Shown here in pieces: positions 232 through 7,596 of a stretch of DNA of 22,024 nucleotides. This DNA is from a virus: positions 1 through 22,024 of IMG/VR virus record IMGVR_UViG_3300036832_001273. One strand, written 5' to 3'. Both the position numbers and the translations under genes were made by a program. Below the pieces are notes generated by a model that saw only the letters and a list, made by a program, of their open reading frames with translations, was not told the DNA's origin and did not search any database. Positions within the stretch are counted from its first letter, which is position 1, and each line of letters begins with the position of its first letter.

Positions 232-489
232 TCAGCCTCGGTGCTTCGCCATGATCATCTGCTCGTTCACCTCGATCAACTGACGCACGGTGTCGAGCCA
301 TTGTCCGATCAGCTGCTCGCGGTGCTTGGCGGTCTCAATAGCGCCGCGTGTGTCGAAATGACCGGCGATCCACATGGCGACCAGATCGGCAAGCGCAGCG
401 CCAATAATATCCGGCGGATTGCCGGCGAGAACAGGCCGCACGCGCTCGGCTAGCGACAAGGCGGTGGTGGCATCCCGGCGCGCGCTCAC
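232..489 (-). CDS. Small conserved phage protein of unknown function (GTG start)
   Basis: This 85-residue protein starts at a GTG whose last two bases lie inside the TGA stop of the upstream helix-turn-helix gene (GTGA overlap), which argues for translational coupling and decides the start. The longer frame reaching back to 798 is rejected because it would cover the whole regulator gene. The sequence is mostly helical, with an ALSLAERVRPVLAG segment, a GAALADLVAMWIAGH segment and a C-terminal IGQWLDTVRQLIEVNEQMI helix. I recognise the type (a small protein near phage regulators, with a 'LAxRxRPLLAG...GAALADLxAxWLAGH' layout) but know no function. It has no cysteines and no membrane segment. 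Confidence 0.6.
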   Translation of the reverse strand: MSARRDATTALSLAERVRPVLAGNPPDIIGAALADLVAMWIAGHFDTRGAIETAKHREQLIGQWLDTVRQLIEVNEQMIMAKHRG

Positions 490-722
490 GCCTTTGCCCG
501 CTCGCGCTTGCGCGCTATGTCGCCCAGCTTCGCCAATACCATCCGGGCTACCGCAGCAGGCGCTCCGGGCGGCACCCCCGCCCGCTCCCAGCCCACATAG
601 CTTTGACGACTGACCGGGAAATGTCGACTGAATTGCAGCTGGGTTTCTCCCCAGCGGGCCCGCATCGTGCGCAACCGCTCGCCCAGCGCGCGGTCGCGTG
701 GCCGTCGTTTTTTTGGGTCCAT
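486..722 (-). CDS. Helix-turn-helix transcriptional regulator (XRE/Cro-like)
   Basis: This is a 78-residue basic protein. After a lysine/arginine-rich N-terminus (residues 3-11), residues 14-48 read GERLRTMRARWGETQLQFSR then HFPVSRQSYVGWERAG, the usual layout of an XRE/Cro helix-turn-helix: T/Q-x-x-F-S at the first helix, V-S-R-Q-S-Y for recognition and W-E-x-A-G after it. I placed the start at the ATG at 722 because CAGGAG lies 8 nt before it; the upstream in-frame codon at 761 would lie in the operator region. The gene is first in the leftward operon and diverges from the recombination operon. An inverted repeat at 752-783 lies between the operons, so autoregulation and control of the rightward genes are likely but inferred. 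Confidence 0.75.
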   Translation of the reverse strand: MDPKKRRPRDRALGERLRTMRARWGETQLQFSRHFPVSRQSYVGWERAGVPPGAPAAVARMVLAKLGDIARKRERAKA

Positions 723-751
723 TTGCACACTCCTGGAAAAATTCATTTGTC

Positions 752-783
752 GTCTTGACACGAGCGCGCGGTACTGTCAAGAC
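752..783. promoter_or_regulatory. Operator-like inverted repeat with divergent TTGACA boxes
   Basis: GTCTTGACA (752-760) and TGTCAAGAC (775-783) are perfect 9-bp inverted repeats separated by 14 nt. With one 2-nt gap the symmetry extends outward (TGTCGT on the left, ACGACA on the right). Each arm contains TTGACA, a -35-like hexamer, one pointing toward each divergent operon. The sequence 17 nt downstream of each is CAAGAC, a poor -10, so a promoter call is tentative. It lies 29 nt upstream of the helix-turn-helix gene start and 7 nt before the pentamer array. The simplest reading is a binding site for the adjacent regulator. Confidence 0.55.
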
Positions 784-790
784 ACGACAG

Positions 791-930
791 CGCGGCATGG
801 TGTGGCGGGGCCGGGCGTGGCGGGGCGTGGTGCGGCTTGGCGCGGCTGGGCAGGGTGGGGCGCGGCGCGGCTAGGCGGGGCGGGGCGGGGCTGGGCAAGG
901 CATGGCAAGGCAAGACGAGGCAAGGCAAGG
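791..930 (+). repeat. Pentamer array A: 28 units of (C/T)NNGG
   Basis: The 140 nt divide exactly into 28 consecutive 5-nt units. Twenty-seven end in GG (the exception is CAAGA at 921-925) and all begin with C or T, mostly C. There is no insertion or deletion in the register. The 5' part is G/C-rich (CGGGG, CGCGG, CGTGG); the last units are CAAGG, CATGG, CAAGG, CAAGA, CGAGG, CAAGG, CAAGG. The array is in the leader of the rightward recombination operon. A separate Shine-Dalgarno (AAAGGAAG) sits between its end and the ATG at 959. The G-rich strand is the RNA-like strand. It makes up most of the 236-nt non-coding gap. Confidence 0.9.
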
Positions 931-958
931 TTCTTAAACATGAAAGGAAGCAAGCATC

Positions 959-1579
959 ATGGACGCGAAAGTAAAAGACAAAGACGTAGTGAAGATCTCC
1001 CTCCCGACAGAGCTGGTTACAAGAAAGGTTCTGCTGGTCGGGCTCACGGAGATAATGTTCGACCGTTATCCAGGCGACAACGATACCAAGCTCGAGCCGC
1101 ACCAGAAGCTCTACCTCCAACCTGGCGGGTCACGAATTATTGGGCTGCCGGCATTGAACATTATGTCGTTTCTTTCGGCGCACAACACCAATTCTGCGCC
1201 CAAGCGGCTACGCGACCCGCGCAAGTTCAAGAAGATCGCTGACGCGATGCTGTCGTTCTGCTCGATCCGCGAGCAGTTCCTGCCGTTCCTGCGCGACGGC
1301 AAGCCGATCGTGTTTGGCAAGCTGGAGAACGACAGGGACCCGGTGAGCGGGGTGTACGTGCATAGGAGCGTGGCGCGGCTCGACAAGGGCATCCCGAATC
1401 CGAAGGTGCGCCCGGTGCTGCCGCTTGATTGGGCGTTGCAGTTCACCATGGATATTTACCCCAATCGCGAAATAAAAGAGGTTGACGTTCAGAATCTCAT
1501 CGAAGAAGGCGGCCGCGCACTCGGATTAGGTACCTTCCGCGGAGTGTTTGGGAAATTCCGCATCGAACGGTGGGATTGA
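959..1579 (+). CDS. Conserved phage protein of unknown function, first gene of recombination operon
   Basis: This is a 206-residue soluble protein with no signal peptide or membrane segment. I do not know its function. Visible blocks are LLVGLTEIMFDRYPGD (25-40), PHQKLYL (48-54), a REQFLPFLRDGKPI region (104-117), RPVLPLDWALQFTMDI (151-166) and the C-terminal GLGTFRGVFGKFRIERWD (189-206). The last block is a glycine loop of the form G-x-G-x-x-R-x-x-x-G-x-F, which recalls but does not prove a RAMP/RRM-type fold. The start is set by GGAAG 8 nt before the ATG. Being directly upstream of exonuclease and annealing genes, it may take part in DNA recombination or end processing. That role is inferred from position only. 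Pentamer array A precedes it and array B follows 2 nt after its stop. Confidence 0.8.
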   Translation: MDAKVKDKDVVKISLPTELVTRKVLLVGLTEIMFDRYPGDNDTKLEPHQKLYLQPGGSRIIGLPALNIMSFLSAHNTNSAPKRLRDPRKFKKIADAMLSFCSIREQFLPFLRDGKPIVFGKLENDRDPVSGVYVHRSVARLDKGIPNPKVRPVLPLDWALQFTMDIYPNREIKEVDVQNLIEEGGRALGLGTFRGVFGKFRIERWD

Positions 1580-1581
1580 TT

Positions 1582-1711
1582 CGCGGCTAGGCGTGGCTGG
1601 TCAGGGCACGGCTTGGCATGGCGAGGCAAGGCGTGGCCTGACGAGGCGGGGCACGGCGCGGCACGGCATGGCCAGACTGGGCAAGGCATGGCAAGGCTCG
1701 GCAAGGCAAGG
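1582..1711 (+). repeat. Pentamer array B: 26 units of CNNGG
   Basis: The array begins 2 nt after the TGA of the preceding gene and ends 11 nt before the exonuclease ATG, so it fills the intercistronic gap. All 130 nt fall into 26 five-nt units without an indel. Every unit begins with C and 23 end in GG; the exceptions are CTGGT, CCTGA and CCAGA. The run CTGGGCAAGGCATGGCAAGG at 1677-1696 is identical to 891-910 in array A. The final CAAGG followed by AA makes AAGGAA, the Shine-Dalgarno of the exonuclease gene, so the array reads directly into the ribosome site. Confidence 0.9.
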
Positions 1712-1722
1712 AACGAAACGAT

Positions 1723-2511
1723 ATGGCACTCACCGAGAAACAACTAGCCGCCCGCGCTGGTAAACTCACAGCTTCGCGGGTCGCCGTTCTGATGAGGGGT
1801 GACGCCGCAGGCATTCTGCAATTGTACCGAGAGATGATCGGCGAGATTCCTGAGGAGAATCTTGACGACGTGTGGCCGGTGCAGCTCGGCAGCGCCACCG
1901 AGCAACTTTCCTTGGACTGGTTTGAGCGAAAGAACCATATAGCGGTGACCCACCGCGGAGAAGTGGTCGTCCACCCCAAACATTCGTGGGCTGCTTGCAC
2001 GCTGGATGGATGGGTGGATCAGATTAAATGTCCCATAGAAGCCAAACATTGCGGCGGCCGCGAACCAATCGAAATTCTCATTGATCGTTATCAACCACAA
2101 ATGCAGTACCAGATGTGGGTCACTGAAGCCGCCCAGTGCGCGCTATCCATCATTCTCGGCGCCAATGAACCGGTCGTGGAATACATAAGCCGCCATGACG
2201 CCTACATTGAGCAGATGGTTGATCGGGCGGACTATTTTCTCATGTGCGTCGCACTACGCAAGCCGCCGGTGCAACTGGCGCCGGTGGCCCCGCCGATCGA
2301 GCCGACCGCCGAGATAAACATGCAGGGCAACGAGAAGTGGGCGACGCAGGCGCTGCGCTGGCTGCAGACCCACGGCGCCGCCGACGTTGCCAAGGATAGC
2401 GAGAAGATCCTCAAGTCATTGGTGCCGCCGGAGGCCAAGCGCTGCTTTGGCCACGGCGTCAAAATTAGTCGCGATCGCGCTGGTCGCCTGTCGCTGCGAG
2501 AGGGAGACTGA
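1723..2511 (+). CDS. YqaJ/lambda-type phage exonuclease
   Basis: This 262-residue protein has the landmarks of the YqaJ/lambda-exonuclease branch of the PD-(D/E)XK superfamily. These are GKLTASRV with T16-A17-S18 near the N-terminus, a glutamate at E60 (GSATEQ), the metal-binding D95 in ACTLDGWV, E106-A-K108 in PIEAKH, and a YQPQMQYQMWV helix (123-133) corresponding to the conserved Q-containing motif. Such enzymes degrade one strand of double-stranded DNA ends 5' to 3' and hand the 3' single strand to an annealing protein. The next gene, 3 nt downstream, is an ERF annealing protein, giving a complete two-component recombination pair. Residues 185-262 form an additional C-terminal region after a proline-rich linker. 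The start is set by AAGGAA from the end of array B. Confidence 0.88.
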   Translation: MALTEKQLAARAGKLTASRVAVLMRGDAAGILQLYREMIGEIPEENLDDVWPVQLGSATEQLSLDWFERKNHIAVTHRGEVVVHPKHSWAACTLDGWVDQIKCPIEAKHCGGREPIEILIDRYQPQMQYQMWVTEAAQCALSIILGANEPVVEYISRHDAYIEQMVDRADYFLMCVALRKPPVQLAPVAPPIEPTAEINMQGNEKWATQALRWLQTHGAADVAKDSEKILKSLVPPEAKRCFGHGVKISRDRAGRLSLREGD

Positions 2512-2514
2512 AAC

Positions 2515-3444
2515 ATGACCGACACCGAAAAACCAGAGAAGCGGCCGGCGCGCGTGATCGATATATTGCCGCCGCCGAATCCGATGCAGATCCTGTCGCG
2601 CGCCGTCGCCGATGGCGCCTCACTGGAGGTGCTGGAAAAGCTGATGGGGCTGCAGGAACGCTGGGAAGCCAACGAGGCCCGCAAGGCATTCGAGAAGGCG
2701 ATGGCTGCGGCCTCGACTGAAATGCCGGCCCTGGTGAAGAACCGCGCGGTCAAATTTGGCACTACATCCTACAAGCACGAGGACCTGGCCGAGGTGGTGA
2801 GCGCCATCGCGCCGGTGCTCGGCAAGCACGGCCTGTCGCACCGGTTCGAGACCACCACCGAGCCCGGGCGGATCACAGTCACCTGCATCATCTCGCACGA
2901 GCTGGGCCACTCGATCCGCAATTCCTTGTCGGGGCCGGCCGACAACAGCGGCGGCAAGAACGCCATCCAGTCGATCGGCTCGAGCATCACGTACTTGAGC
3001 CGTTACGCGCTCAAGGCCGCGCTCGGCTTGGCTGCCGCCCACGACGACGACGGCAACAGCACCACCGCCGTCGACAAGGAGCCGGTGGCCAAGCCCGACG
3101 CCATGAAGCGGCCCGCACCGCCGCCTCCGCCGCCTCCTCCGCCAGAGCCTGAAAAGGCCGCACCCAACCCCAGGCTCAACATCAAGCAGATCATGGCGCT
3201 CGAGCAGGCGGCGCGCGCGGCCGCAGCGAAGGGCAGCGCAGAATTTACCCTGTTCTGGCGCACCCACGCCACCGACAACGAGCGCGCCATCATCAAGGGG
3301 CTGGGAGTGGAGTTGGCGGCCATCCGGGACGCGGCCGATGCCCGCATCATGGCGGAGGCCGCCCATGAAGCCGGTGAAACCACCGACATTTACAACCCCG
3401 AAACCGGCGAGGTGGAGCACGGCGAGCCGGGGCAGGGGACATGA
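2515..3444 (+). CDS. erf: ERF-family single-strand annealing protein
   Basis: This is a 309-residue protein. Residues 45-180 match the ERF domain: LQERWEANEARKAFEKAMAA, KNRAVKFGTTSYKHEDLAEV, VLGKHGLSHRFETT, then IGSSITYLSRYALKAALGLA and the acidic H-D-D-D-G end, typical of the family. ERF proteins anneal complementary single strands during phage recombination and genome circularisation. A run of nine prolines (202-210) links to a C-terminal region (220-309) with two or three predicted helices, whose role is unknown. The gene starts 3 nt after the exonuclease stop, with GGGAG inside the end of that gene as ribosome site. Its stop overlaps the next start (ATGA). It is expected to act with the upstream exonuclease. 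Confidence 0.9.
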   Translation: MTDTEKPEKRPARVIDILPPPNPMQILSRAVADGASLEVLEKLMGLQERWEANEARKAFEKAMAAASTEMPALVKNRAVKFGTTSYKHEDLAEVVSAIAPVLGKHGLSHRFETTTEPGRITVTCIISHELGHSIRNSLSGPADNSGGKNAIQSIGSSITYLSRYALKAALGLAAAHDDDGNSTTAVDKEPVAKPDAMKRPAPPPPPPPPPEPEKAAPNPRLNIKQIMALEQAARAAAAKGSAEFTLFWRTHATDNERAIIKGLGVELAAIRDAADARIMAEAAHEAGETTDIYNPETGEVEHGEPGQGT

Positions 3445-3671
3445 AAGCTAGGATCGAGAAAATCTATCCCGAGATTGGCCGCAGGATGAAGCAGTTGCGC
3501 GTGGATTCCGCCATGACGCAGGCGGAGACCGCCAAGCGCATGGGCATTAACCGCAACCACCTCGCCTACATGGAGAACGGCGGCCAGCGCATCCACCTGC
3601 ACACCCTGGTGGCCTTCGGCAAGGTGCTCGGGGTCTCGGTCCATCACATGCTCGAAGGGATAGCACCCTGA
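3441..3671 (+). CDS. Small XRE-family helix-turn-helix protein
   Basis: This 76-residue protein is nearly all one XRE domain: IGRRMKQLRVDSAMTQAETA, KRMGINRNHLAYMENGGQR, then the HLHTLVAFGKVLGVSVHHML tail. T26-Q27-A-E-T, G35-I-N-R-N-H-L and the E45-N-G turn are the usual conserved positions. The start overlaps the ERF stop by 4 nt (ATGA). Its place inside the recombination operon, rather than at a control region, suggests a Cro-like or late-acting role, possibly on the inverted repeat at 752-783. That link is inference. Confidence 0.85.
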   Translation: MKARIEKIYPEIGRRMKQLRVDSAMTQAETAKRMGINRNHLAYMENGGQRIHLHTLVAFGKVLGVSVHHMLEGIAP

Positions 3672-4036
3672 TGCGAAAAGTTCTTCCTGATATTGTCGAA
3701 CGCGCCCGCCTGCGCGAGGGCCGGCTCGGCAGCGATAGCTCATACGGTTGCAACGGCGCCTTCAATTTGATCGGGCCGACCGGGATGAATTTGGCGGTGA
3801 TTGCCAGCGACAACTTGGGCTGGGAGCATGTCAGTGTTTCGCTCAAGCACCGCCCGCCGAACTGGGCCGAGATGTGCTTCGTCAAGAACCTGTTCTGGGA
3901 CGAGGAGGAGACCGTGCTGCAGTTTCATCCGGCCAAATCCGAATATGTAAACTGCCACCCAAACTGCTTGCATTTATGGAAAGCGATCGGGCCGCAGCCG
4001 GAGCTTCCGCCCGCCATCATGGTAGGTCCCAAATGA
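3671..4036 (+). CDS. Conserved phage protein, DUF7694-like
   Basis: This is a 121-residue protein of unknown function. It contains the recognisable string WEHVSVSLKHRPPNWAEMCF (residues 52-71), followed by VKNLFWDEEETVLQFHPAKS and EYVNCHPNCLHLWKAI. This layout (W-E-H-V-S-V-S, R-x-P-x-W-x-E-M, L-F-W-x-E-E, Q-x-H-P, H-x-x-C-L-H-L-W) is that of a domain widespread in phages of proteobacteria, which I believe is DUF7694. The conserved H and C residues could bind metal. The start overlaps the previous stop by one base (TGATG) and the end overlaps the next start (ATGA), so the gene is tightly coupled. Confidence 0.78.
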   Translation: MRKVLPDIVERARLREGRLGSDSSYGCNGAFNLIGPTGMNLAVIASDNLGWEHVSVSLKHRPPNWAEMCFVKNLFWDEEETVLQFHPAKSEYVNCHPNCLHLWKAIGPQPELPPAIMVGPK

Positions 4037-4284
4037 AGAACGCCATCGGCGCCAAGCAGTGCGGCACCTGCCGGTATTTCCACAATCCGCAGGACGGCAA
4101 TGTGGGGGTCTGCGTCTTCAACCCTCCGACCGCGTTCATCGTCGGGGTGGTGCCGTCGTCGCCCTTGGTCGACCCGCGCAAGCCGGGCGCCGACATGGCG
4201 CATGTGGTGCGGGGGTATTTCCCGATGGTGGGCAAGGAGGACGGCTGCGCCAAGCACGCGCCAGATGTGGGAGCACTCAATTGA
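4033..4284 (+). CDS. Small putative zinc-binding phage protein
   Basis: This is an 83-residue protein. The longer frame from 3748 is rejected because it would overlap the whole preceding gene. The ATG at 4033 overlaps that gene's TGA (ATGA), which fixes the start. Cysteines C10-x-x-C13, C27 and C72-x-x-x-H75 form a plausible zinc site around GTCRYFHNP, GVCVFNPP and GYFPMVGKEDGCAKH. This 'CxxC-RYF ... C-x-x-x-PP ... FP-x-V-x-x-x-D-x-C' layout occurs in many small phage proteins of unknown function. Confidence 0.75.
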   Translation: MKNAIGAKQCGTCRYFHNPQDGNVGVCVFNPPTAFIVGVVPSSPLVDPRKPGADMAHVVRGYFPMVGKEDGCAKHAPDVGALN

Positions 4285-4499
4285 CCAGAGAAAAGCACTT
4301 GGCTTGGTGCAAGACCCGCGCGCTTGAATATGTCGACCGCGGCGAGCCGATAGACGGCTTAACGTCTATGATGAGTGATCTAAGGAAGCATCCTGATCTG
4401 GAGAAGCATCCAGGCATCCAGCTTGGCACCATGCTGCTGCTCGGCGGCCACTTGTCTCATCCGCGCGAGGTGCGGCGTTTCATCGAGGGGTTTAACTAA
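4281..4499 (+). CDS. Small conserved phage protein (TTG start)
   Basis: This is a 72-residue protein with the distinctive text REKHLAWCKTRALEYVDRGE, TSMMSDLRKHPDLEKHPGIQ and LSHPREVRRFIEGFN. I recognise it as a small conserved protein of prophages and podoviruses without known function. The start is a TTG overlapping the previous stop (TTGA), with GGGAG 7 nt upstream; the protein text begins TREKH in related sequences I remember, which supports this start. It is the last gene of the rightward operon. Its TAA overlaps the stop codon of the convergent minus-strand gene by 4 nt in all. Confidence 0.75.
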   Translation: MTREKHLAWCKTRALEYVDRGEPIDGLTSMMSDLRKHPDLEKHPGIQLGTMLLLGGHLSHPREVRRFIEGFN

Positions 4500-4726
4500 A
4501 GCTCGGTGATGTGCTTGGGGTGCGGCAGTTCCTGCAGCGGCGGCGGCGTGACCACCGGCCCCTCCGGGGCGCTGCCGACAAACGCGGCGGCGGCAGCATG
4601 GGCGGCGGCCTTCTCGGCCTCGGTGGCGCTCTCTTGGAACCAGATGGTTTTGCCGTCGGCGCTGACGCCTTCGATCGGGGCCACGGCGGCGATGGCGGCG
4701 TGGAAGGCTTGCAGGTTGTTAATCAT
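4496..4726 (-). CDS. Small conserved phage protein, end of late operon
   Basis: This protein has 76 residues from the ATG at 4726 (ATGA overlap with the fibre gene stop), or 78 from the ATG at 4732; both are in frame and neither has a clear ribosome site. The sequence opens with INNLQAFHAAIAAVAPIEGV, continues with DGKTIWFQESATEAEKAAAH (a predicted amphipathic helix) and ends in a proline-rich tail. The type is often found next to phage tail-fibre genes. The function is unknown; an assembly or chaperone-like role is only a guess from position. Confidence 0.65.
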   Translation of the reverse strand: MINNLQAFHAAIAAVAPIEGVSADGKTIWFQESATEAEKAAAHAAAAAFVGSAPEGPVVTPPPLQELPHPKHITEL

Positions 4727-6051
4727 AGCCATGACCGAAAGCCCAACTGATTGTTGTTTGATGAGTTGAATGTATTGGCGTTTGTTCCGTCGCCAAGTTC
4801 ATTGGCAGAGGTAACATGAAGGCCCGTGGCCGACACCAAGAGCAGAGCGTTCATCCTGCTTGCGGCAATGGCGGCCGACTGCCCCTGGAATACCATAGGA
4901 GACACGAACGCTGTGATGGTATCAAATCCCATGCCCAAAAAAGCCGTACTGCCGTTGACGGCCGCCGTAACCACACCACCGTAATAAGAAAAATTCATCG
5001 CCCGCTCGGAACTGGTCTGCAGGATCGTGATTTGATTATAAGTTCTGGCCCCTGCTTGTCTCACGGTGTTGCCGGCGTAAGTGTAACTCGATCCTGTGTC
5101 TTGCACAAAACCGGTGAACAGAACTGTATTGTAGTAGTTACTGAGGCCAAAGATACCGGCAGTGACGTTGCCAGGAAATTGCCAGGTCACCAAGCCGTTC
5201 GCGCTGGTGTAAAAAGACCCGAGGAACGTCGCCTGGTTGGCCGCCACTGCAACCGTGCTGGGTGTTCCAGCGGGTGAAATGAGCATATTGGTGGCGCCTG
5301 AGTTGGTCAGGAAGCCGCCGAATATGCTCAACGTCATGGCCCTGGTGGTGGTGTTGGTCCATTGCAGTGCCGCCAGGGTGAGCACCCCGGCATTTAAAAT
5401 CATGAAAATGTCGAACACGGCACCGCTGGGAAAGATGGCGCTGCCGTTCATGTTCAGGATGAGACCGATATGGTCGTTAAGCGGGGTGGAGAATTGATAC
5501 ATCTGCACCGCCGAACCGTTGAACAGCGGAACGAACGGATGGACGTAGGGCGCGTAATAGATGGTGCCGGTGGGAGCGGCACTAGTAAAATTCACCGGCA
5601 CTGCAGACTGCGTCGTCAGCCGGCCGCCGGGCGTGAACCAAGCCAATGTCGGATTGGGCTGCGACGGCGCCTCGAAGTAGAAGCCGCCGAGGCCGCCATT
5701 GAGCGTCGAGTGGAAGGTGAAGATGTACTGCTGGCCGATCACTACGTCGGCGGTGCCGGCCTGGGTCACGCCGTCGGCATGATACACCGGCAGGAACCCG
5801 AGCCCGTTGTACTGCGCGGTGACCAGTCCGGTGGAGGTGCCCAGCGCCACAAAGCGGTAGCTGCCCAGGTCGTTATAGGACGACAGCGCCGGGCAGTTGA
5901 CGTTCGGGGTCAGCGCGATGGCGTTGGTGCCCGAGGGCGTGCAGGGGATGGAAACCATCGCCCCGACCTGATTGAACATCGTATCCAAGCTCGCCATCGG
6001 CTCCGGCGAGGTGGCGGTGCCAAACGGATAGGGCGGGCTGGGCCAGGACAT
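4723..6051 (-). CDS. Putative tail fibre / receptor-binding protein
   Basis: This is a 442-residue protein rich in T, S, N, G and aromatic residues, with almost no charged residues over long stretches and many short beta-like segments, as expected for a phage fibre or spike. There is no signal peptide. Residues 58-100 (SYNDLGSYRFVALGTSTG then LVTAQYNGLGFLPVYHADG) resemble a repeated beta module of phage fibre proteins in which a Y-R-F strand is followed by a linker and 'LPVY'. The C-terminus ends in an N/S-rich region and a final LGFRSWL. It starts 3 nt after the upstream gene stop. Position at the distal end of the late operon also fits a host-recognition protein. No catalytic motif is seen. 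Confidence 0.6.
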   Translation of the reverse strand: MSWPSPPYPFGTATSPEPMASLDTMFNQVGAMVSIPCTPSGTNAIALTPNVNCPALSSYNDLGSYRFVALGTSTGLVTAQYNGLGFLPVYHADGVTQAGTADVVIGQQYIFTFHSTLNGGLGGFYFEAPSQPNPTLAWFTPGGRLTTQSAVPVNFTSAAPTGTIYYAPYVHPFVPLFNGSAVQMYQFSTPLNDHIGLILNMNGSAIFPSGAVFDIFMILNAGVLTLAALQWTNTTTRAMTLSIFGGFLTNSGATNMLISPAGTPSTVAVAANQATFLGSFYTSANGLVTWQFPGNVTAGIFGLSNYYNTVLFTGFVQDTGSSYTYAGNTVRQAGARTYNQITILQTSSERAMNFSYYGGVVTAAVNGSTAFLGMGFDTITAFVSPMVFQGQSAAIAASRMNALLLVSATGLHVTSANELGDGTNANTFNSSNNNQLGFRSWL

Positions 6052-6054
6052 GGG

Positions 6055-6351
6055 TTAGACCCACTCGATCACAGTACAGGTCCCGGCCGCACTGGCGAGC
6101 GCCCGCCAGCCGCAGGCGCACTTCAAGTTGTCGATCTGCAGGAAGCCGCCGGGCGAGAGCTGGATGCCGGTGTTGGTCGCCGCCGCCACCGTGCCGCTCA
6201 GCGGCTGCGGCACCAAGTAGAGGATGGCGGTGGCGTTGGGGTTGCTGAGAATCAACCCCTTGCGCTGCGCATTGGCGGGAATGAGCAGGCCATCGGCAAG
6301 ACCGACCGCCACCTGGGTGAGGATGGGAATGTCGCTGGTGACGCTGGTCAT
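6055..6351 (-). CDS. Small beta-rich virion-associated protein, paralogue of 16707..17033
   Basis: This is a 98-residue protein from the ATG at 6351, which has AAGGAA 8 nt upstream at the end of pentamer array C; an in-frame TTG at 6357 is the alternative start. Residues 20-60 read IPANAQRKGLILSNPNATAI and so on, ending with CTVIEWV. The 108-residue protein at 16707..17033 has the same plan: VPANPSRAGLYVFNPGTVAI, a Q-x-x-x-G-I-x-x-x-P region and an ITLWEHY end. Both look like one small beta-sandwich. The family is often seen next to phage fibre genes, so a capsid/tail decoration or fibre-accessory role is plausible but inferred. Confidence 0.65.
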   Translation of the reverse strand: MTSVTSDIPILTQVAVGLADGLLIPANAQRKGLILSNPNATAILYLVPQPLSGTVAAATNTGIQLSPGGFLQIDNLKCACGWRALASAAGTCTVIEWV

Positions 6352-6361
6352 TTTCAAAATT

Positions 6362-6446
6362 CCTTGCCTTGCCTCGCCGCGCCGGGCCGCGCCGAGCCAG
6401 GCCCTGCCCGGCCGAGCCTCGCCGTGCCTGGCCGCGCCCAGCCTCG
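6362..6446 (-). repeat. Pentamer array C: 17 perfect CNNGG units
   Basis: Read on the minus strand, the 85 nt are 17 consecutive C-N-N-G-G units with no exception and no indel. The array starts 1 nt after the stop of the 55-residue gene and ends 10 nt before the ATG at 6351, filling the gap. The 3' units are CGCGG, CCCGG, CGCGG, CGAGG, CAAGG, CAAGG, and the following AA completes the AAGGAA ribosome site. The last units closely match the end of array D. Confidence 0.9.
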
Positions 6447-6447
6447 A

Positions 6448-6615
6448 TCAGCCGCGTCGCCCGCGCCGAACCTTACGGCCGCGCGCGCGTTTGCCTCGAT
6501 CCGCCGCGCGAAACTCGCGCGCGACGCTCCCCGAAATTCCTGCCTCGCGGGCGAACTTCGGGTCCGCCGCCGCCTTCGCCATGAAGCGTTTCTGTCGCGG
6601 GCTGGTGCTGGGCAT
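6448..6615 (-). CDS. 55-residue conserved basic phage protein
   Basis: This short gene has an excellent ribosome site (GAGGAGGGAGA, 5-12 nt before the ATG) and overlaps no other supported gene. The protein begins MPSTSPRQKRFMAKAAADPK and continues FAREAGISGSVAREFRAADR, then a strongly basic tail with alternating K, R and G. The layout 'MPS-x-S-x-x-Q-x-x-F-M ... A-x-x-x-G-I-x-x-S-V-x-x-E-F-x-x-A-D' is one I recognise from many small phage proteins of unknown function. The basic tail suggests nucleic-acid or membrane binding. Its start lies 11 nt after the stop of the upstream secreted protein, and array C begins 1 nt after its own stop. Confidence 0.78.
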   Translation of the reverse strand: MPSTSPRQKRFMAKAAADPKFAREAGISGSVAREFRAADRGKRARGRKVRRGRRG

Positions 6616-6626
6616 TGTCTCCCTCC

Positions 6627-6890
6627 TCAGTGCGGGGGCGCTTCAGCATGTCCGGTCGAGCGAAAAATCAAGGCATGAACCGAATTGCCATCGACCAACG
6701 CGCCTCCTTTCAAATCATACGCAGGCGCGAGGCGATCGCCCTTTTCAGGTTTGACACTGTCGAACATATGGCCAGCTCTCTCGTTAAATGTCATGGCGTG
6801 CGCTGGCGTCGGAATTTGGAGATAATGAATCCAGATCAAGCCGAGGCTGAAGCCGGATAGAAATAAGAGAGTCAGAAGAGAGGTTCTCAT
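6627..6890 (-). CDS. Small protein with N-terminal signal or anchor sequence
   Basis: This is an 87-residue protein. Residues 3-24 are hydrophobic (SLLTLLFLSGFSLGLIWIHY) after a single arginine, and P-T-P-A-H-A at 27-32 fits a signal-peptidase A-x-A site; otherwise the segment is an N-terminal anchor. The remaining ~55 residues are hydrophilic with no cysteine and no known motif. The gene lies in a stretch of small membrane-type genes, so a lysis accessory (spanin- or holin-like) or a host-surface role is possible; none can be shown. AAGGA lies 6 nt before the ATG and can pair with an upstream TCCTT (see the hairpin entry). Confidence 0.6.
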   Translation of the reverse strand: MRTSLLTLLFLSGFSLGLIWIHYLQIPTPAHAMTFNERAGHMFDSVKPEKGDRLAPAYDLKGGALVDGNSVHALIFRSTGHAEAPPH

Positions 6891-6896
6891 GATGTT

Positions 6897-6909
6897 TCCT
6901 TTCGAAGGA
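6897..6909 (-). promoter_or_regulatory. Hairpin enclosing the Shine-Dalgarno of the 87-residue gene
   Basis: On the minus strand TCCTT-CGA-AAGGA forms a perfect 5-bp stem with a 3-nt loop. The right arm is the ribosome-binding sequence of the gene starting at 6890 and the left arm copies the 16S anti-Shine-Dalgarno UCCUU. The stem is short, so its effect is uncertain. Confidence 0.4.
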
Positions 6910-6920
6910 TGGTTTCAGTT

Positions 6921-7020
6921 CCTTGCCATGCCTTGCCTCGCCGGGCCGCGCCAAGCCAGGCCAAGCCACGCCTTGCCCCACCATGCCCGGCCGTGCCTAG
7001 CCACGCCTTGCTAGGCCTTG
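6921..7020 (-). repeat. Pentamer array D: 20 units of CNNGG, entering the upstream CDS
   Basis: Read on the minus strand, the 100 nt form 20 units in unbroken 5-nt register; 19 end in GG (the exception is CCTAG, which contains the stop codon) and one begins with T. The first two units lie inside the end of the 140-residue gene, supplying its last codons and its TAG. The 3' end reads CGCGG, CCCGG, CGAGG, CAAGG, CATGG, CAAGG. The start codon of the next gene is 30 nt beyond, with its own ribosome site. Confidence 0.88.
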
Positions 7021-7433
7021 GGCTTTTCACCGGCCATTCCGGCGCGCCAGTATATTGCCACGACGGGGAGGAACACTGTTAGCGAAAAGATACCTCCAGC
7101 GACGATGCGCCATGGCTGCGGGTCCCACGCGATGCCGCCCCAAATCAGACAAGCCGCCATCAGGCAGATGAGACCGAGAAGGCGGGCCGAAAGCACGTCA
7201 AGGGCAAGCTCGATCGCAGCCGGATACTGCATCTTAATTTGGGCTGTCGAGGGTGGCGTGACCACCACAGGTGGGGGCGGTGCGACCGGGATGGGCTTTA
7301 CCAAGTTTTCCGGCTCGGGCGGTAGGAAACTGCCACGCCCGGATGCAAGGTGCAGCACCCGCGGACCGTCGACCAGGTCAGCCTCGGTGACGCCGTCTGG
7401 TAGAGGCTTATCGCTTGGTGAAGAATGCTCCAT
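7011..7433 (-). CDS. Small two-helix membrane protein
   Basis: This is a 140-residue protein. Residues 1-70 are hydrophilic with a proline-rich stretch (VAPPPPVVVTPP). Two membrane segments follow at about 84-102 (RLLGLICLMAACLIWGG) and 109-127 (IVAGGIFSLTVFLPVVAIYW), then a short basic tail. The size and two-helix plan fit a holin, but the long proline-rich N-terminus is unusual and no endolysin is visible beside it. GGAGG lies 8 nt before the ATG, and the start overlaps the preceding gene by 26 nt. The last codons are made of pentamer-array sequence, which suggests the array has grown into, or replaced, the original 3' end. Confidence 0.65.
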   Translation of the reverse strand: MEHSSPSDKPLPDGVTEADLVDGPRVLHLASGRGSFLPPEPENLVKPIPVAPPPPVVVTPPSTAQIKMQYPAAIELALDVLSARLLGLICLMAACLIWGGIAWDPQPWRIVAGGIFSLTVFLPVVAIYWRAGMAGEKPKA

Positions 7434-7596
7434 CGGTCGCGCCTCCGTCCTGGATCTTGTGCCGGATCATCAGCACCTTGGCCCCCGCCTCGATCGCCTT
7501 CAGGCGCTCGGTGTTGGTGAGGGTGTCCTTCTTGAGCATGTCGATAATGCCGCGCTCCATCCGGTCGAGCAGGTCATCGCTTTTTTTCGCCGTCAT
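7408..7596 (-). CDS. Small conserved helical phage protein
   Basis: This 62-residue, mostly helical, charged protein reads KKSDDLLDRMERGIIDMLKK then TERLKAIEAGAKVLMIRHKI. I recognise this layout (D-L-L-D/E-R-M-E-R ... T-x-x-E-R-x-x-A-I-x-A-G-A-K-L-L-x-I-R-H-K-I) from small phage proteins near structural genes; the function is unknown. The ATG overlaps the stop of the 676-residue gene (ATGA), which sets the start. Confidence 0.7.
   Translation of the reverse strand: MTAKKSDDLLDRMERGIIDMLKKDTLTNTERLKAIEAGAKVLMIRHKIQDGGATDGAFFTKR

Follow-up and report, generated by a model that had tools for sequence, protein, structure and literature searches.

YNNGG repeat arrays and a Vipr-family gene in a viral genome record point to a VIPR system with additional arrays in the late operon

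VIPR (Viral Interference Programmable Repeat), first reported in a bioRxiv preprint of April 2026 (PMC13142463), is a viral RNA-guided DNA-binding system related to CRISPR. In the characterised systems its guide RNAs (vrRNAs) carry 9-16 repeats of YNNGG; the protein binds GGY as a scaffold and NN pairs with double-stranded DNA, one base being skipped per pair; the skipped base is often the codon wobble position, and the system represses competing phages (PMC13142463). Two further systems resemble the locus described here. Csm3 and Cas7 of class 1 CRISPR share with its protein the predicted fold, a glycine-rich C-terminal motif and an expected periodic binding of guide RNA, but the locus has a period of 5 rather than 6, a single-domain protein and YNNGG arrays in place of a repeat-spacer design, and no CRISPR array or other cas gene was seen. 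TIGR-Tas (PMC12045711) is likewise carried by phages and joins a small RNA-guided protein to guides in tandem arrays, but is set apart by another protein family and another array design.

The DNA analysed here (the window) is the whole 22,024-nt stretch at positions 1 to 22,024 of IMG/VR record IMGVR_UViG_3300036832_001273. With a probability of about 0.94, it carries a VIPR system in which a Vipr protein of the RAMP family would load YNNGG guides to repress genes of competing phages. To this reading the present analysis contributes the homology and predicted fold of Vipr, the arrays beside its gene, the reciprocal linkage of the two, the sense orientation of the arrays and their codon phase; RNA binding, the 1-nt skip rule and repression come from the published SUSP1 work (PMC13142463). 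As in the described systems (SUSP1, P. fulva prophage type; PMC13142463, PDB 36pp), a phage-encoded Vipr RAMP homologue is accompanied by tandem YNNGG arrays on either side of its gene and in the same orientation, and these adjoining arrays have a held GGY and hypervariable NN. Literature searches for pentameric or CNNGG phage repeats found nothing relevant, and the link to VIPR came through the neighbouring protein; the result is an independent rediscovery of VIPR from raw sequence.

Run scoring identified exactly four CNNGG arrays in the window, with segment scores of 15-17. Among 200 order-2 Markov copies of the window the best score was 5 and was usually 2-3, so the four in-register arrays of the sequence-only reading stand far above shuffled sequence. 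Array 1 (791-930, plus strand; 28 pentamers, 27 of them YNNGG) lies directly 5' of vipr. Array 2 (1582-1711, plus strand; 26 pentamers, 23 YNNGG) begins 2 nt past the vipr stop codon, and its 3' end, CAAGGCAAGGAA, precedes the next start codon. Array 3 (6362-6446, minus strand; 17 pentamers, all YNNGG) is located between two small late-operon genes, and array 4 (6921-7010, minus strand; 18 pentamers, all YNNGG) begins right after the stop codon of the gene at 7011-7433. The first three arrays had been placed and counted correctly; the fourth had been given as 20 units (6921-7020), but at 7011-7020 the sequence is still that of the upstream gene, whose coding region ends in AAG GCC TAG, and two end units were therefore dropped. 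Across the 91 units originally claimed, 86 are YNNGG, and exactly five lack the final GG (CAAGA, CTGGT, CCTGA, CCAGA and CCTAG), as had been counted. The first base is a pyrimidine in all 91: C in 87 and T in 4 (TGTGG, TGCGG, TGGGG and TGGGG). Because departures at this position are all T, the consensus is YNNGG and not CNNGG; the earlier description of a held C and GG with free NN stands, except that the first base is Y and that NN, by the published code, is the targeting information. By the ORF list, the window has four gaps longer than 60 nt (762-958, 1580-1722, 6358-6448 and 6891-7010), each holding one array as previously noticed, and three of the four arrays begin 0-2 nt past a stop codon. 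Every array is on the transcribed-sense strand, in agreement with the earlier statement that the G-rich strand is the RNA-like one. The reversed pattern, searched across the record, gave no match, and neither did an Rfam search of the window.

The vipr gene (959-1579, plus strand), between arrays 1 and 2, encodes a 206-aa RAMP-family protein. It is the window's member of a recurring family found beside arrays, whose proteins end in G(L/V)G.(W/F)RP...GRF; all 34 aligned members, including that of the window (E-value: 8e-6), match phrog_4652 (function unknown). A profile of the family matched one solved protein, PDB 36pp, the "SUSP1 Vipr protein" (E-value: 4.1e-41). As the window protein had been part of this profile, an HMM was rebuilt with that protein and its nearest relative removed, and its sole match among the window ORFs was 959-1579 (E-value: 6e-15, or 2.8e-14 on its own). 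When an AlphaFold model of the protein (pLDDT 92) was compared with the PDB, the best match was Csm3 (Foldseek E-value: 7.5e-7; Z 12.8, rmsd 3.8, 167 residues), with other RAMPs also among the Foldseek matches. The predicted model has the RRM core and G-loop of the RAMP fold, with the motif GLGTFRGVFGKF. Based on these results, the product of 959-1579 is Vipr, a small RAMP with a predicted Csm3-like fold. A tblastn search with the window protein found no match in named phages or in 385 alphaproteobacterial genomes.

Downstream of array 2 are genes for a YqaJ/RecE-like exonuclease (1723-2511, plus strand; Pfam YqaJ 2.9e-14, phrog_434 3.1e-32) and an Erf-like single-strand annealing protein (2515-3444, plus strand; Pfam ERF 6.4e-22), the latter nearest, weakly, to that of a Bradyrhizobium phage (54%). 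A helix-turn-helix regulator (486-761, minus strand; phrog_2328 transcriptional repressor, 1.7e-4) is divergent from the vipr operon. Adjacency of vipr to a YqaJ exonuclease distinguishes the window from the published systems; the exonuclease may be an accessory protein (vap), or it may merely belong to the phage recombination module. No cas or defence match was found among the three operon proteins scanned.

Similar arrays are widespread. An IMG/VR scan for eight perfect units returned at least 120 stretches, and the GC content of the array contigs ranged from 39 to 76% among the matches listed. By simple gene calls, the gene 5' of an array shared its strand in 116 cases and had the opposite one in 6. 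When loci were fetched by array alone, 85 of 115 encoded Vipr; the 262 arrays at those 85 loci lie a median of 186 nt from vipr, and 255 of them are on its strand. Conversely, 63 of 80 loci fetched by Vipr protein alone have an array within 3 kb, as compared with 9 of 80 in a reversed-sequence control, and the vipr strand holds 153 of the 154 arrays listed at them. The arrays had earlier been tied to recombination genes as such; that association gives way to one with the Vipr gene. Array-bearing named phages include Cheoctovirus mycobacteriophages, Gordonia phages Trine and Pipp and Cyanophage Cy-LDV1, and the arrays lie in the early region of those that are annotated. VIPR is thus common in environmental phages and also present in well-studied named ones.

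The codon phase of NN provides a check of the VIPR code that is absent from the main text of the preprint (PMC13142463). A guide that reads a coding target with period 3 keeps all NN of an array in one codon phase, while periods of 2, 4 or 5 mix phases. For 356 distinct arrays, with 200 shuffles per control, the mean best phase log-likelihood was 1.455, versus 1.168 (sd 0.037) when NN were dealt out among arrays and 1.234 (sd 0.035) for GC-matched shuffles. Pooled NN are closest to codon positions 1-2 (r 0.70), and window arrays 1, 2 and 4 also score best in that phase, weakly. This coherence is evidence for period 3 at the level of the family and tells little about individual arrays.

These data also bear on what else the arrays might be. 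The last bases of arrays 2 and 3 are AAGGA, which lies about 10 nt ahead of a start codon, and AA has a frequency of about 0.2 in the last two units versus about 0.1 elsewhere, as would suit expanded Shine-Dalgarno leaders in which repeated CAAGG loads ribosomes or couples translation across the gaps, with no guide role. The last units of these two arrays likely do carry the ribosome site of the next gene, but this is likely a second use of them: leaders would not explain the linkage to one RAMP family, the coherent codon phase, or why C is kept and NN varies at a distance from the start codon, and arrays in other phages end before hairpins or terminators. We therefore regard leaders with no guide role as very unlikely. 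Still less probable is a G-rich sense-strand element (an RNA G-quadruplex, R-loop or recombination hotspot), which would account for the 5-nt recurrence of GG on the non-template strand close to the YqaJ and Erf genes but would not require a Vipr gene or conservation of the C and leaves the codon phase unexplained. Least probable of all are simple tandem repeats grown by slippage, as seen in the homogeneous CNNGG microsatellites common in bacterial chromosomes (mostly 1-3 NN types), since the viral arrays have many NN types, neighbouring NN that are nearly independent (9.0% of adjacent pairs identical versus 7.5% expected, in line with the earlier argument against simple copying), and a strand bias and reciprocal Vipr linkage that together with this independence refute slippage for the viral class.

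The arrays match the published vrRNAs, with GGY as scaffold and NN as target-reading bases, and the 5-nt periodic RNA or DNA property that the sequence-only reading proposed to be under selection is the vrRNA guide function of a VIPR system. By analogy with SUSP1, the window Vipr would assemble along the array RNA, one subunit per pentamer, gripping GGY and presenting NN. Through its successive NN pairs the guide would recognise the double-stranded DNA of a phage or prophage in competition with this one by base pairing, one target base, usually a codon wobble position, being skipped per pair, and the bound Vipr-guide complexes would repress the target gene. On this model the phage's arrays would be processed and loaded, arrays 3 and 4 would serve the same Vipr in trans, and particular genes would be silenced.

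The window departs from the published VIPR systems in several respects. Its arrays have 17-28 units rather than 9-16. No stable or shared structure was found 3' of the window arrays (z -0.9 to +1.8), and the RNA continues into the ribosome site of the next gene. Type II (SUSP1-like) systems have 9-16 repeats and a conserved structured 3' tail; neither is seen in the window, and the system is not filed as type II because of the lack of such structure after the arrays. Array length counts against type II but not against VIPR, since the mature RNA may be shorter than the array. Furthermore, arrays 3 and 4 are separated from vipr by 4.8-5.3 kb and run on the other strand, where their operon includes virion genes (the surrounding genes have capsid, head and tail matches). 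None of the 262 arrays above is more than 2.2 kb from vipr within the same fetched stretch, a count that understates distant arrays because these stretches are short; in one other record, arrays share the strand of vipr at a distance of about 10 kb. The distant opposite-strand pair, the missing structured tail and the use of terminal units as ribosome sites are the unusual features of the window. A tentative interpretation, which we consider rather less than an even chance, is a split VIPR, with one pair of early guides flanking vipr and a late opposite-strand pair that forms untranslated leaders of virion mRNAs, with no dedicated tail. The lytic programme would then set when guides are supplied, and the same RNA would act as messenger leader and as guide. 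Late-operon guides, and guides with a second role as mRNA leaders, would be layouts added to those described.

Targets were sought for the window guides. Exact 8-unit skip-1 patterns over IMG/VR each matched 4-31 stretches, and those extended, all from the scans before the last one (which gave four stretches), ran no further than chance. Within the 385 alphaproteobacterial genomes, array 2 had only two 3-mismatch matches, in small genomes and consistent with chance, and array 3 had none. No target was thus found for the window guides in IMG/VR (skip-1) or, for arrays 2 and 3, in the alphaproteobacterial genomes. Guides matched their own genome at no more than 7 of 10 units. Eight-unit skip-1 matches within the collected loci numbered 9, versus 6 and 2 in shuffles; as this is not clearly above the shuffles, single matches of this kind are weak.

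One pair of records deserves description. A guide of L288 (4419-4509, plus strand) matches the major capsid gene of L058 (5807-5859) over nine consecutive units, 18 of 18 bases, with a 1-nt skip. The L288 capsid gene (HK97-fold capsid, NCBIfam 6.9e-100) encodes the same peptide, DLGQAYIMS, but has TTG for CTG and AGC for TCC. Both are synonymous changes at codon positions 1-2, which only amino acids with six codons allow. The two units that they disrupt are exactly those at which L288's own gene does not match the guide (7 of 9 units match). The swaps are a possible self-sparing signature, and the pair suggests a way in which a phage might keep a wobble-skipping guide off one of its own genes. 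L058, a 22.4-kb contig with no detectable Vipr, also has a 10-unit array (6559-6609, minus strand); its units 1-8 match, in antisense, the conserved start of vipr (ALLMHNAR) in L288 and two relatives, L281 and L305. As the example was noticed after the search, each of the two guides matches along only part of its length, and a nine-unit run also occurred at skip 0 and another at skip 3, we regard it as a strong lead that falls short of proof.

Twelve viral records (10-105 kb, some of them fragments) have YNNGG arrays and no Vipr by profile search (L010, L015, L031, L042, L053, L073, L090, L100, L102, L004, L027 and L080). These may be solo arrays, may encode a diverged Vipr or may have lost Vipr with missing sequence. 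The Cheoctovirus phages Quico (L249) and Brocalys (L251) have an identical pentamer sub-block, bounded by a 4-nt CAGG, in otherwise different arrays; array modules seem to be exchanged. A diversity-generating retroelement (A-specific mutagenesis of CAAGG) was dropped as a source of the variation because NN are random, yet the blocks common to these two phages are intact. At L252 (2988-3257) and L253 (764-1150), publicly annotated hypothetical genes overlie vrRNA arrays; the sense frames of these arrays are nearly stop-free and readily attract false gene calls.

Several phages have arrays that alternate with conserved hairpins or T-arm-like mini-helices. Each array in L020 (2142-2460) and L038 (150-540) is followed by a conserved hairpin, AAACACAC-stem-AGTTTGC, with stem changes that compensate between copies; it is likely a vrRNA tail, in a repeat-unit design. 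In L019, L092 and L104, arrays alternate with mini-helices bearing a tRNA T-arm-like GGTTCGACTCC. ARAGORN found no tRNA in most loci, and tRNA-like pieces between arrays were rejected; the mini-helices are probably vrRNA tails, and possibly processing signals of the arrays. In L400, a close relative of the window, each of the three arrays is followed by CAAGGCAAGG and then an inverted repeat (CCAGC...GCTGG). Genes on either side of the L400 vipr (5328-5771 and 6664-7464) are metallophosphoesterase-like by motif and may encode accessory proteins.
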